Positions 38,593-43,997 of a stretch of DNA of 64,000 nt are shown here, in pieces. The notes below the pieces were generated by a model. The model was given only the letters and a program-made list of their open reading frames with translations, was not told the origin of the DNA and ran no database searches. The DNA comes from Cyanobacteria bacterium FACHB-63. Lineage in GTDB: Bacteria > Cyanobacteriota > Cyanobacteriia > Leptolyngbyales > Leptolyngbyaceae. How positions within the stretch are numbered: the stretch's first letter is position 1; each line of letters begins with the position of its first letter. The DNA lies in contig JACJNX010000077.1 of NCBI GenBank assembly GCA_014695255.1, forward strand, positions 372,001-436,000, written 5' to 3'. A program made the translations under genes and the position numbers.

Positions 38593-39588
38593 CTAACCTT
38601 CAACCGTGCCATCCGATCGAATCATGCCTTGGACGATCGCCGATTTCAGGAGTGCGCTACTCATTTCTGCGCGGGTAAAGTTGGCGCGAGTGAGATCGGC
38701 AAAGCTCAGATCAGCGCGTCCAAGGTAAGCTTCGACTAAAACCGCATCGATCAACTGAGCGTGTTGAAGATTCGCACGGCTAAGATCAGCGTGATTTAAT
38801 TTAGCGCGGGTGAGAGTTGCGTGAGTTAGTACGGCTTTATGCAGTTTGGCGTGATTCAGTGTGGCATCGGTTAAGCTTGCCGATCGCAGATCCGCTTGAG
38901 TGAGAACCGATCGATTTAGCTTCGCATCTTTCAGGTTCGCGTGGCTCAAGTTGGCTTCGGTTAAATCAGCCTCGGTGAAAAACGCTCCGGTCAGGATTGC
39001 TTCACTGAGACTCGCTTGGGTTAGCGTAGCTTGGCGTAGATTTGCCTCGCTTAAATTAGCTCCTGCGAGATTCGATCGACTTAAATCCGCTCCGGTTAGA
39101 TTCGCGCCTCGTAAATCCGCTCCCCGCAGGTCGGCACCGCGTAACACTGCGCCTTCGTAAGTCCTTTTCTCTGCTCGAAAATTGGCTCCATGCAGATCCG
39201 CCCCCCGCAAGTCAGCGCCACTAAAATTGGTGTTGCGTAAATCTGCACCGCTGAAATTGGCATCTACGATCGTGGCAAGCGAGAGATCGGCTCCCCGCAG
39301 ATCAGCATGATTGAGAATTGCACCATGTAGATCGGCATCGCGCAAATTAGCATTAAGCAGAGTTGCTTGGCTCAGGTTTGCACCACTTAAGTTGGCGTGA
39401 GTCAGATTGGCGCGAGTTAAGGTGACGCGGTTGAGATAGGCAAAGGTCAAAACTGCGTGATTCAAATCAGCTTGGGTGAGGTTAGCGCCGATCAGATCTG
39501 CGTGAGTGAGATCGATGCCTGCTAAGTTTTTGCCAACAAACTCTAATTCTCCCGCGTCGTATCGTTGCAGCAATTCTTGAGCATTCAT
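38593..39588 (-). CDS. Pentapeptide-repeat protein
   Basis: A 331-residue protein made almost wholly of A(D/N)LXX repeats from about residue 25 to 310 (for example ADLRGADLSLATIVDANFSG), interrupted once by RAEKRTYEGA near residue 146. Such proteins fold as a right-handed quadrilateral beta-helix. There is no signal peptide, so it is probably cytoplasmic. The first 24 residues (QELLQRYDAGELEFVGKNLA) form the common cyanobacterial capping start. Function unknown; some relatives mimic DNA and bind gyrase. The ATG at 39588 lies 58 bases from the upstream gene's stop. Confidence 0.93.
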   Translation of the reverse strand: MNAQELLQRYDAGELEFVGKNLAGIDLTHADLIGANLTQADLNHAVLTFAYLNRVTLTRANLTHANLSGANLSQATLLNANLRDADLHGAILNHADLRGADLSLATIVDANFSGADLRNTNFSGADLRGADLHGANFRAEKRTYEGAVLRGADLRGADLRGANLTGADLSRSNLAGANLSEANLRQATLTQASLSEAILTGAFFTEADLTEANLSHANLKDAKLNRSVLTQADLRSASLTDATLNHAKLHKAVLTHATLTRAKLNHADLSRANLQHAQLIDAVLVEAYLGRADLSFADLTRANFTRAEMSSALLKSAIVQGMIRSDGTVEG

Positions 39589-40782: not shown

Positions 40783-41106
40783 ATGGCTAACCTATACACC
40801 GTTGAAATCCGGCACCAGGGGCAGACCCACATCATCGAAGTTCCCGAAGATCGCACTATTCTGGACGTTGCCAACAACGAGAAAGGCTTAGAGCTGCCTG
40901 TATCTTGCACAGCAGGGGTTTGTACAACCTGTGCCGCCTTGATTACAGAGGGAACTGTTGATCAAAGCGAAGGAATGGGTGTCAGTCCTGATCTTCAAGC
41001 TCAAGGATACACGCTGCTTTGTGTCGCTTACCCGCGATCGAACATCAAGCTTGAAACCGAAAAAGAAGAAACCGTTTACCAAAAACAATTCGGACAGCAA
41101 GGATGA
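40783..41106 (+). CDS. Plant-type [2Fe-2S] ferredoxin
   Basis: A 107-residue ferredoxin with the cluster motif SCTAGVCTTCAA (CX4CX2C, Cys42, Cys47, Cys50) and the fourth Cys about 29-30 residues later in TLLCVAYP. It carries single electrons, for example to nitrogen or biosynthetic enzymes. The N-terminus lacks the usual YKV(T/R)L start, and a C-terminal extension of about ten residues (VYQKQFGQQG) is present, so it may be one of the minor ferredoxins rather than photosynthetic Fd1. Its stop overlaps the next ATG (ATGA). Confidence 0.93.
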   Translation: MANLYTVEIRHQGQTHIIEVPEDRTILDVANNEKGLELPVSCTAGVCTTCAALITEGTVDQSEGMGVSPDLQAQGYTLLCVAYPRSNIKLETEKEETVYQKQFGQQG

Positions 41107-41270
41107 TTACGGATTTCATTACGATCGAATTAACCCTTCCCGGTTCTGTGCGCGAACTGCATCAATCGATCGAGCAGCAGTTACGCACCTTTGGAGAGCC
41201 GTTACGTTGGGCAATTACGCGAGTGAACTCGCAAACCGTTGAAGTTGAAGCAGTCGTCACTCGTGAATAA
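41103..41270 (+). CDS. Small protein (55 residues) wedged between ferredoxin and DUF3326
   Basis: A 55-residue frame with ATG 41103 overlapping the ferredoxin stop (ATGA) and TAA 41268 overlapping the likely GTG start of the next gene. The sequence (TIELTLPGSVRELHQSIEQ, GEPLRWAITRV, VEVEAVVTRE) has a beta-alpha-beta-beta rhythm and no low-complexity bias. The double overlap with two real genes suggests translational coupling in one operon, and I think similar small proteins lie beside DUF3326 in other cyanobacteria, from memory. No family name or function. Confidence 0.65.
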   Translation: MITDFITIELTLPGSVRELHQSIEQQLRTFGEPLRWAITRVNSQTVEVEAVVTRE

Positions 41271-42309
41271 ACCGTACACTGTCGGATTGATTGTTCCAAC
41301 CGGAATCGGAGCCGCGATCGGCGGGTATGCAGGCGATGCGTTGCCTGTGGCTCGTGCGATCGCTGAAGTTGCCGATCGCTTGATCACGCATCCCAATGTC
41401 CTCAACGGGGCACAACTCTACTGGAATCTGCCGAATGCTCTTTATGTTGAAGGCTATGGTTTAGATCAGTTTGCCGTGGGCCATTGGGGCTTATTGCCGC
41501 AAGCCTCGAACCGCATCGGATTAATTCTCGATCGTGCGATTGAACCCGAGCTGCAACTCAGACATTTACAGGTTGCAGATGCCGCTAGAGCAACCTTGGG
41601 ACTGAACTTAACGGATTATGTTGTGACGGATCAGCCTTTGAATGTAGAGCTAAGAACGGCAAAATCGGGGGCAACTTGGGGAACGATCGGACACCCAGAT
41701 AGTTTGCTGAGAGCGGCTGAAAAATTGATCGATCAAGCAGGCGCAACTGCGATCGCGGTTGTAGCTCGATTTCCTGATGATCCGGACAGTGAGGCTTTGC
41801 AGGATTATAGATCCGGTCAAGGCGTGGATCATTTAGCTGGAGCAGAGGCGGTAATCAGTCATTTGATTGTTCGCACTTTTCGGGTTCCTTGCGCTCATGC
41901 ACCCGCTTTGTCTCCGTTGCCGATTGATCCGAACTTATCACCGCGATCGGCTGCCGAAGAACTTGGTTACACCTTTCTGCCTTGTGTGTTAGTCGGACTG
42001 AGCCGCGCCCCGCAATTTACAGAATTTCCGAATGCTCATGCAATCTGGGCGGATCAGGTAGATGCGTTAGTGATTCCGGCATCGGCGGCGGGAGGCAGTG
42101 CGATCTTAAGTTTGAGTCAGTCTAAAACTCGAATTATTGCGGTCGAGGACAATCAAACAAAATTACAGGTTCGACCGGAAGCATTGGGAATTCGATCGAC
42201 GATCGTAAAGTCTTATCTCGAAGCGATCGGGGTGCTAATCTGCGATCGAGCGGGGATCAATCCTGCTGCTTTGAGTCCAGAAATTTCCTCGCTCCGGGCT
42301 TTAGATTGA
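41263..42309 (+). CDS. DUF3326 family protein
   Basis: The frame opens at 41239, but the GTG at 41263 gives the family start (NKPYTVGLIVPTGIGAAIGG) and 348 residues. Conserved-looking parts: GYAGDALPVARAIAEVAD, LITHPNVLNGAQLYWNLP, then YVEGYGLDQFA, VARFPDDPD, GVDHLAGAEAVISHLIVRTF and PASAAGGSAIL. No signal or membrane segment. The Gly-rich segments hint at nucleotide or cofactor binding, but the function is unknown. Probably translated together with ferredoxin and the small gene before it. Confidence 0.88.
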   Translation: MNKPYTVGLIVPTGIGAAIGGYAGDALPVARAIAEVADRLITHPNVLNGAQLYWNLPNALYVEGYGLDQFAVGHWGLLPQASNRIGLILDRAIEPELQLRHLQVADAARATLGLNLTDYVVTDQPLNVELRTAKSGATWGTIGHPDSLLRAAEKLIDQAGATAIAVVARFPDDPDSEALQDYRSGQGVDHLAGAEAVISHLIVRTFRVPCAHAPALSPLPIDPNLSPRSAAEELGYTFLPCVLVGLSRAPQFTEFPNAHAIWADQVDALVIPASAAGGSAILSLSQSKTRIIAVEDNQTKLQVRPEALGIRSTIVKSYLEAIGVLICDRAGINPAALSPEISSLRALD

Positions 42310-42401
42310 TCGCAATTTTCAGGGGTGGATCGCCCTAGTATCCTTTCTGAGTCTTGAGTTATATTCAAGGCTCAGTTGGAAATAAACGCGGTAAAACTCT
42401 A

Positions 42402-42995
42402 GTGGCAGAACAAATCCCTGATACCCCCGAAATGCAGCCGCTCACCCGCATCCAAGTTCTGATTGCAATGGGTGTGACTGCTGTTGTTTTATTAGTTATT
42501 TCTAAAGTTTGGTTGCACTTCAGCGCAGTGCCCCTGCTTGCGGTGCGATTTTCGGTGCAATCACTATTACAAGGGATTGGATTGGGAATTGGAATTTCGA
42601 TCGCGAGTGCGATCGTCTACCGCGTCTGGGCGGAGTACCGTAGAAGTGCAAATGAATATCTGACGCTGGTGCTAAAACCGCTGCTACCTCCGGACATTCT
42701 CTGGCTGGGACTGCTTCCCGGATTAAGCGAAGAATTATTGTTTCGGGGGGTGTTGCTGCCGGAGGTTGGACTAGATTTTCTGGGTGTTCTGATTTCTAGT
42801 CTTTGCTTCGGGGTGCTGCACATGAGCAATTTGAAGCAATGGTCGTATGTGGTCTGGGCATCGATCGTTGGTGTAGCGCTGGGAATGAGTGCGGTTTGGA
42901 CAGGGAATTTATTAGTCCCGATCGTGGCGCACGTTTTAACGAATCTAATTTCTGGAGTGGTTTGGAAGTTGGGCGATCGAACTTCCAAATCATAG
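42402..42995 (+). CDS. CPBP-family intramembrane protease (Abi/Rce1 type)
   Basis: I prefer the GTG at 42402 (AEQIPDTPEMQPLTRIQV), giving 197 residues; the open frame extends upstream to 42354. Several membrane helices. The catalytic motifs are seen: EELLFRG (Glu-Glu and Arg), then FGVLHMSN and VAHVLTN with the two His. Rce1-type enzymes cleave inside the membrane; CPBP proteins in bacteria serve protein maturation or self-immunity. No linked substrate is evident. A strong bidirectional terminator follows. Confidence 0.9.
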   Translation: MAEQIPDTPEMQPLTRIQVLIAMGVTAVVLLVISKVWLHFSAVPLLAVRFSVQSLLQGIGLGIGISIASAIVYRVWAEYRRSANEYLTLVLKPLLPPDILWLGLLPGLSEELLFRGVLLPEVGLDFLGVLISSLCFGVLHMSNLKQWSYVVWASIVGVALGMSAVWTGNLLVPIVAHVLTNLISGVVWKLGDRTSKS

Positions 42996-43230: not shown

Positions 43231-43581
43231 ATGGCAACTTGGCGCTGCGTCAAATATTGTGGGGCTTGCTGCAATCTCGATCCGAGCGATCGACCCGATT
43301 TAGAAGACTACCTCAACCCCGAAGAACTCCACCTTTATCTCAACATGGTTGGCGAAGATGGCTGGTGCGTCAATTTCGACAAGATCACCCGCGAATGCAG
43401 CATTTATGAAGACCGTCCCCGCTTTTGTCGCGTTACCCCGGAGACGTTCGAGGAAATGTTTGGAGTGGAGCCAGAAGAAGTGAACGATTTCGCGATCGAC
43501 TGCTGCCGCGAACAAATTGAAGGAGTCTATGGTGATCGCAGTTTAGAACTGCTGAAATTCGAGCGAGAAATTGGTCTCTAG
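43231..43581 (+). CDS. YkgJ-family cysteine-cluster protein
   Basis: A 116-residue protein with the CxCC-type zinc or iron cluster ligands: RCVKYCGACC at the start, GWCVNF, ECSIYEDRPRFCR, and DCCREQI near the end. The family (formerly UPF0153) probably binds a metal cluster; its role is unknown. A small soluble protein in a single-gene position, 114 bases after the tRNA, on the opposite strand. Confidence 0.9.
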   Translation: MATWRCVKYCGACCNLDPSDRPDLEDYLNPEELHLYLNMVGEDGWCVNFDKITRECSIYEDRPRFCRVTPETFEEMFGVEPEEVNDFAIDCCREQIEGVYGDRSLELLKFEREIGL

Positions 43582-43640: not shown

Positions 43641-43997
43641 ATGTCTTCCAACCTACCCCTCACAGAAACCAGAGAACTGCTGATTCTCGAACAGACTCAA
43701 CCCGCTAAAGCGAAGTCTTCCTTTCTTAGCGTGTTTGGCTCGACGTTTATCACCATTTTTCTTGCAGAACTCGGAGACAAAACGCAACTTGCAACACTAC
43801 TGATGAGCGCCCAATCTCACGCTCCTTGGACGGTATTCGCGGGTGCGGCTTCTGCGCTGGTTGCAACCAGCTTGCTCGGAGTTCTTGTTGGGCGCTGGCT
43901 GTGTCAGAACATCTCTCCGAAAACCTTGGAGAAGGCAACTGGCGGAATTCTGCTTTTGGTCGCGGCGCTGTTGGTTCTAGACGTAGTGAGGATGTAG
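43641..43997 (+). CDS. Half-size TMEM165/GDT1 (UPF0016) cation transporter, subunit 1
   Basis: A 118-residue membrane protein with one copy of the family's E-x-G-D-K-T/S motif in LAELGDKTQLATLLM, about three membrane helices and an N-terminal extension. Full-length GDT1 proteins have two such motifs. Here each half is a separate gene, so this one and the next probably form a heterodimer. Cyanobacterial and plant members export Mn2+ or Ca2+ from the cytoplasm. The next ATG is three bases after this stop, so they are coupled. Confidence 0.9.
   Translation: MSSNLPLTETRELLILEQTQPAKAKSSFLSVFGSTFITIFLAELGDKTQLATLLMSAQSHAPWTVFAGAASALVATSLLGVLVGRWLCQNISPKTLEKATGGILLLVAALLVLDVVRM

Follow-up and report, generated by a model that had tools for sequence, protein, structure and literature searches.

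The open reading frame (ORF) of 55 residues at positions 41103–41270 (forward strand) of the analysed window, i.e., the whole 64,000-nucleotide stretch from Cyanobacteria bacterium FACHB-63, is a genuine gene under purifying selection. It is proposed here that its product serves the DUF3326 protein as a subunit encoded by a gene of its own, directly upstream of the DUF3326 gene, and comparison of genomes across the phylum makes this the probable reading. The coding frame, its phylum-wide conservation, and its co-occurrence, adjacency, overlap and fusion with DUF3326 are all visible at the level of sequence. The first-pass annotation had suggested a small partner for either ferredoxin or DUF3326; the sequence comparisons described below support such a role and, of the two neighbours, favour DUF3326.

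The small ORF starts with ATG, ends with TAA (41268–41270) and encodes a protein of predicted beta-alpha-beta-beta order, in which the Arg35-Trp36 codons (41205–41210, forward strand) lie within a PLRWAIT motif. It is preceded on the same strand by a plant-type [2Fe-2S] ferredoxin gene of 107 codons (40783–41106; Fer2 E 1.1e-19, TIGR02008 over its cut-off) and followed by a DUF3326 gene (41263–42309, forward strand), which encodes 348 residues when read from a possible GTG start at 41263–41265; the PF11805 match (E 7e-171) falls entirely inside this ORF. The TGA of the ferredoxin gene and the ATG of the small ORF share four nucleotides (ATGA, 41103–41106), and the end of the small ORF overlaps the DUF3326 frame by eight (41263–41270, pattern GTGANTAR). 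Each overlap is retained in 8/8 same-genus genomes. Thus, of the overlaps initially noted at both ends, the one with the ferredoxin stop stands as described; at the other end, the TAA falls just after the GTG codon and shares no nucleotide with it, and it is the two frames that overlap. Because the spacing changes freely outside the genus, where gaps of varying length are found, the double overlap is a local, genus-level feature.

The coding status of the small ORF is supported by the pattern of substitutions. The selection analysis covered six of the eight same-genus genomes, two 54-residue versions being left out. In 15 pairwise comparisons dN was 0.12 and dS 0.87, in line with the synonymous-biased substitution that the first-pass annotation had proposed to look for. 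In the frame of the small ORF pN/pS was 0.24 with no stop codons in the six sequences, whereas the two shifted frames gave 1.36 and 2.05 and contain, in total across these sequences, 15 and 17 stops. Differences by codon position were distributed as 114/57/289. When compared with its neighbours (pN/pS 0.11 for the ferredoxin and 0.07 for the first 150 codons of DUF3326), the small gene changes faster than both, yet it is clearly constrained. A homologue was found in 42/42 genomes of the order, a count that takes in the window's own genome, and together with the frame-specific constraint this argues for a genuine small gene and not a chance frame. The frame is conserved in relatives across both the order and the phylum; loss of the frame in relatives had been named as the observation that would speak against the gene.

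Among 386 genomes of the phylum, the small gene was found in 157 by a single-sequence search, in 262 with profile A1 (59 rows) and in 363 with the broader profile A5 (30 rows, some of them chosen by a pattern including RW); some of the sampled genomes supply rows to these profiles, and hence to their own counts. DUF3326 was found in 381 of the 386 genomes. Both genes occur in 359; four have only the small gene, 22 only DUF3326, and one (G085) has neither. The single miss listed for the window's class, G362, has an ORF with LRWALT just upstream of DUF3326, as seen by eye. Among 14 named control genomes, DUF3326 was detected in Synechococcus elongatus only. PsaA/PsaB were detected in 6/6 tested genomes of the window's class and in 0/27 outside it; they are absent from 8/8 tested genomes of families f30 and f33–f35, and from 10/10 of family f31, in which the small gene is widespread. 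Since the tested genomes of f30 and f33–f35 are without PsaA/PsaB, the link with DUF3326 does not need photosynthesis. A pattern search of viral contigs gave 33 matches and no relative; in genome contigs it gave 384 matches, three of them relatives. A search for DUF3326 in plasmids and phages gave no match.

The Arg35-Trp36 pair is invariant in 59/59 rows of A1 and in 30/30 rows of A5, some of the latter having been picked by RW. The motif is altered in paralogues. In the paralogue of the window's own genome (L066:2951-3220, C112; 89 residues, A1 E 1.7e-8), VSW replaces the corresponding residues (PVSW for PLRW), and this copy lies upstream of an ORF that by eye resembles a glycosyltransferase gene. 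Second copies in f26 (L067:3055-3246 and L068:2972-3220, genomes G232 and G384) carry LNW (PLNW) and lie near an ORF judged by eye to be CHAD-domain-like.

The positional link with DUF3326 was scored in 134 genomes, namely those for which the places of both genes were listed; second copies were left out, as were genomes with one place unlisted (e.g., G173, G080 and many of f19). In 108 of the 134 the small gene lies on the same strand and at most 300 nt upstream of DUF3326, and in 115 it lies within 3 kb, i.e., seven beyond the 108. In 30 deep-branching genomes, the start region of DUF3326 was recovered at 27 loci, and three gave no motif. At three of these 27 loci (L134, L138 and L143), a domain bearing RW is part of the same ORF as DUF3326, and at four (L123–L126) a motif-bearing upstream ORF overlaps the likely DUF3326 start. 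One further locus, L147 of f30, has a DUF3326 extension without the RW motif, eight loci (all f38) likewise have a motif-free extension, and at 11 of the 27 no RW-type motif was found within 450 nt. All four overlapping ORFs match A1 (E 7e-6 to 4e-5, Z=1000). Taken alone, the fused region of L138, whose genome is 64% complete, matches A1 with E 8e-6 (Z=1000), the regions of L134 and L143 match poorly (E 0.47 and 1.9, respectively, Z=1000), and that of L147 does not match (E 120). The four f30 N-terminal regions, compared with A1 as a set to which L138 contributes, gave an hhalign probability of 95.5 and E 1.3e-8. The genome of L143, which is not represented in A5, gave E 0.0025 at the fused place, and in f30 genomes the fused domain is the only small-domain match found. 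In g49, the small ORF lies just upstream of DUF3326 in 9/9 genomes examined, eight of which had given no A1 match. A DUF3326 tree (quick method, midpoint root, 42 of the DUF3326 rows at hand) placed the window's class (support 100), f30 (99) and f33–f35 together with SH-aLRT 89, and left f32, f36 and f38–f40 outside that group under the midpoint root.

DUF3326 is met in two arrangements: in deep branches the small domain may be fused to it or overlap its likely start, whereas the window encodes each of them in a gene of its own. In the proposed mechanism, the small ORF would encode a small folded protein, a subunit made beside DUF3326. The two frames overlap and are probably translationally coupled, and in part of f30 the same domain would constitute the N-terminal part of DUF3326. 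We infer that the small protein binds physically to DUF3326, the two forming a complex whose composition is fixed; the conserved Arg-Trp pair at strand 2 may be the interface or lie at a shared site. With less weight, it is suggested that ferredoxin was added to the pair in the photosynthetic class, perhaps as an electron donor.

Another possibility is that the small protein stands alone with its own job, its closeness to DUF3326 being a matter of operon history, with no complex formed. This we consider unlikely, although several observations speak for it. In four f31 genomes the small gene is present but DUF3326 was not detected: G093, G124 and G172 of genus g126 (98–99% complete) and G393 (94% complete). 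The fourth sampled member of g126, G347, has both genes. If those four genomes are complete at the relevant places, the small gene can persist without DUF3326, and for this reason the confidence in the subunit assignment was lowered. In 19 of the 134 scored genomes the small gene lies more than 3 kb from DUF3326 or on another contig; in eight of the 19 the two genes fall on separate contigs, which in some cases may be no more than an effect of the assembly. At the loci read in f31 and f40, the small gene is found among other genes and not beside DUF3326, and at 20 loci of these families, chosen for having matches, it is a separate gene of about 50–55 codons. By eye, at these loci (L103–L122) it often stands directly after a glmS-like ORF, sometimes overlapping it, and otherwise often before metK- or ahcY-like ORFs, and the separate gene beside such ORFs in f31 would suit a protein working by itself. 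A reading by eye of the places where the small gene is unlinked revealed no conserved neighbours. An RqcH-like neighbour at L063 was considered as a lead and set aside, as it was not noticed by eye at 20 further f31/f40 loci. A stand-alone role sits poorly, however, with the fusions and overlaps with DUF3326 in deep branches, with adjacency in 108/134 scored genomes, and with co-occurrence in 359/386.

Two further families bear on the link between the small gene and DUF3326. In f38, DUF3326 is extended at its N-terminus by about 90 residues, without the motif, at 8/8 loci (L131, L137, L139, L141, L142, L144, L145 and L146), and a separate small gene was found in 0/8 genomes. By eye, the extension reads as beta-alpha-beta-beta; hhalign revealed no recognisable homology with the small protein (probability 0.1). 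In f31, 4/5 loci read have no long DUF3326 extension and the fifth gave no motif. Viewed across f38, f30 and f31, this pattern suggests that in the f38 extension the small domain has diverged past recognition, although comparison of the profiles lends this no support. Four of five f32 genomes have DUF3326 and no small gene detected at E 0.05. An examination by eye of DUF3326 neighbours at 17 loci revealed no common theme.

The relation to ferredoxin was assessed at 58 loci of the window's class, with loci that had less than 900 nt of flank and no match dropped from the denominators (three for ferredoxin, one for DUF3326). A Fer2 gene lies at most 900 nt upstream of the small gene at 41/55 loci, and DUF3326 at most 900 nt downstream at 51/57. 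Ferredoxin is thus a regular but looser neighbour than DUF3326, looser also because the fused and overlapping forms found in deep branches involve DUF3326. It has to be considered whether the small protein serves the neighbouring Fed3-like ferredoxin of low abundance as its dedicated adaptor or maturation factor, with DUF3326 as a further client. The neighbour counts are in part consistent with such a role: apart from the frequency of Fer2 upstream, ferredoxin is adjacent at four of the six loci without DUF3326 within 900 nt (L020, L034, L047 and L055; in the genome of L055, DUF3326 is 986 nt away from the small gene), and the ATGA overlap is kept in 8/8 same-genus genomes. However, at the 14 loci without ferredoxin, DUF3326 is adjacent in 12 and neither neighbour is present in two; the family is widespread in f31, whose tested genomes are without PsaA/PsaB, and a reading of f31 loci by eye revealed no ferredoxin; and where fusion or overlap was found in deep branches, DUF3326 is the gene concerned. 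We regard this role as doubtful, and less probable than a stand-alone protein. A partnership with ferredoxin only was likewise ranked below DUF3326, as lineages without PsaA/PsaB keep the small gene. The small peptide is not itself a Fer2 protein: the window's peptide contains no Cys and has no Fer2 match. The idea that a programmed frameshift fuses the ferredoxin frame to the small ORF was rejected as well, the spacing between the two ranging from overlap to hundreds of nucleotides.

No Pfam or NCBIfam model covers the small protein (the NCBIfam scan being of the window protein only), and PF04894, which we take to be the former DUF650 (Nre N-terminal), is absent from the 25 families that a scan of 59 members listed at E ≤ 1. 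Other ORFs near the three genes were also noted in the window. A CPBP-protease-like membrane ORF (42354–42995, forward strand) follows DUF3326 and is a possible further operon member; similar-looking ORFs follow DUF3326 at L090, L097, L098 and L101, as judged by eye. Further downstream on the forward strand, a Cys-rich YkgJ-like ORF (43231–43581) is followed by a GDT1/TMEM165-like membrane ORF (43641–43997), both recognized by eye. On the reverse strand upstream (38593–39588) there is a 331-residue ORF with a long pentapeptide-repeat-like run of A(D/N)LxxA.

In the accessible text of a 2014 review, a cyanobacterial ferredoxin “cluster d” is given as fed3 - duf650 - duf3326 and is listed for many of the tabulated cyanobacteria, not for Synechocystis (Cassier-Chauvat and Chauvat, PMC4284462). 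The order of ferredoxin, conserved hypothetical gene and DUF3326 is that of the window, but the middle gene is labelled there as DUF650, and the portion of the review at hand gives neither its size nor its function. The middle gene of cluster d is probably the small gene described here, and so its place in the operon has probably been in print since 2014 (PMC4284462). From gene order only, the window's ferredoxin is inferred to be Fed3. The available parts of two papers disagree on whether slr1828 is essential in Synechocystis: fed3 (slr1828) was called essential in the review (PMC4284462), while a 2022 paper reports that fx3 (slr1828) was deleted completely and that photomixotrophic growth was then impaired (PMC8887894). 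A comparison can also be made with the C-type ferredoxin FdC2. Judging by the sections accessible to us, FdC2, a ferredoxin of chlorophyll synthesis, has Synechocystis Fed2 as its orthologue (PMC8408499; PMC10947542), and one sentence of the first of these papers instead separates SynFed3 from the canonical type (PMC8408499). FdC2/Fed2 is, like the cluster d ferredoxin, a plant-type ferredoxin that is conserved in phototrophs and low in abundance; the two are set apart by these papers' descriptions, in which FdC2 is assigned to Fed2, whereas cluster d carries fed3. DUF3326 is annotated in potato too, according to an excerpt of a further paper (PMC13294368). Within the literature that could be consulted in part, no study of the small gene was found, the gene having no name to search by; a search for the motif PLRWAIT found no mention of it.

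The AlphaFold2 model of the small protein, built from four sequences, has a mean pLDDT of 94.4, with predicted elements at residues 2–11 (strand), 16–28 (helix), 32–41 (strand) and 45–54 (strand). No credible relatives by sequence were found in the PDB for the small protein or for DUF3326, and a structure model of DUF3326, also from four sequences, was unusable (pLDDT 33.5). The predicted fold resembles that of dodecins (PF07311; 2cz8, 2vxa, 3onr) in its beta-alpha-beta-beta order, its similar size and, in a forced alignment, a Trp on strand 2. It could be imagined that a dodecin-like subunit holds a flavin or other aromatic cofactor on the conserved Trp beside DUF3326, the pair being an ancient, phylum-wide redox enzyme independent of photosynthesis that gained a dedicated ferredoxin in the photosynthetic class; we give this elaborate scheme a low probability. 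Still lower is that of a dodecin-like small protein that would bind flavin or a similar cofactor via the conserved Trp and act alone. What suggests such a binder is that dodecins take the first two Foldseek ranks (E 0.035 and 0.088, probability 0.99 and 0.98), that VIA gives Z 5.9 to dodecin 2cz8_A with an rmsd of 2.3 Å over 55 residues, and that the forced alignment of A5 with the Thermus thermophilus dodecin puts Trp36 on Trp38, at a probability of about 1%. In the dodecin, this Trp38 stacks on the flavin. However, Foldseek gave no match at E ≤ 0.001 with the model, two unrelated chains reach a higher VIA score (Z 6.1) and others are tied with the dodecin. Comparison of the small protein with two dodecins by hhalign gave probabilities of 1.2% or less, and neither the window protein nor any of the 59 members scanned matched PF07311. 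Membership in the dodecin family was rejected, there being no sequence support for it; a class-wide dodecin scan found one match in 194 genomes, with an internal stop. As the Z scores are similar to those of unrelated folds and homology is not detectable by sequence, a likeness of the modelled fold is all that may be claimed. Finally, the overlaps at both ends within the genus might be taken to mean that the ORF only couples translation of ferredoxin to that of DUF3326 and that its product has no role as a protein, but this is practically dismissed by the purifying selection on its amino acids, the confidently predicted fold and the conservation of the gene where it is unlinked or fused.

The subunit reading thus joins two uncharacterised proteins that occur together in 359 of 386 sampled genomes, both with and without PsaA/PsaB. 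Attention shifts with it from ferredoxin as the main partner of the small protein to DUF3326, and the small protein, with its short Arg-Trp motif, offers a concrete candidate partner through which DUF3326 may be approached.
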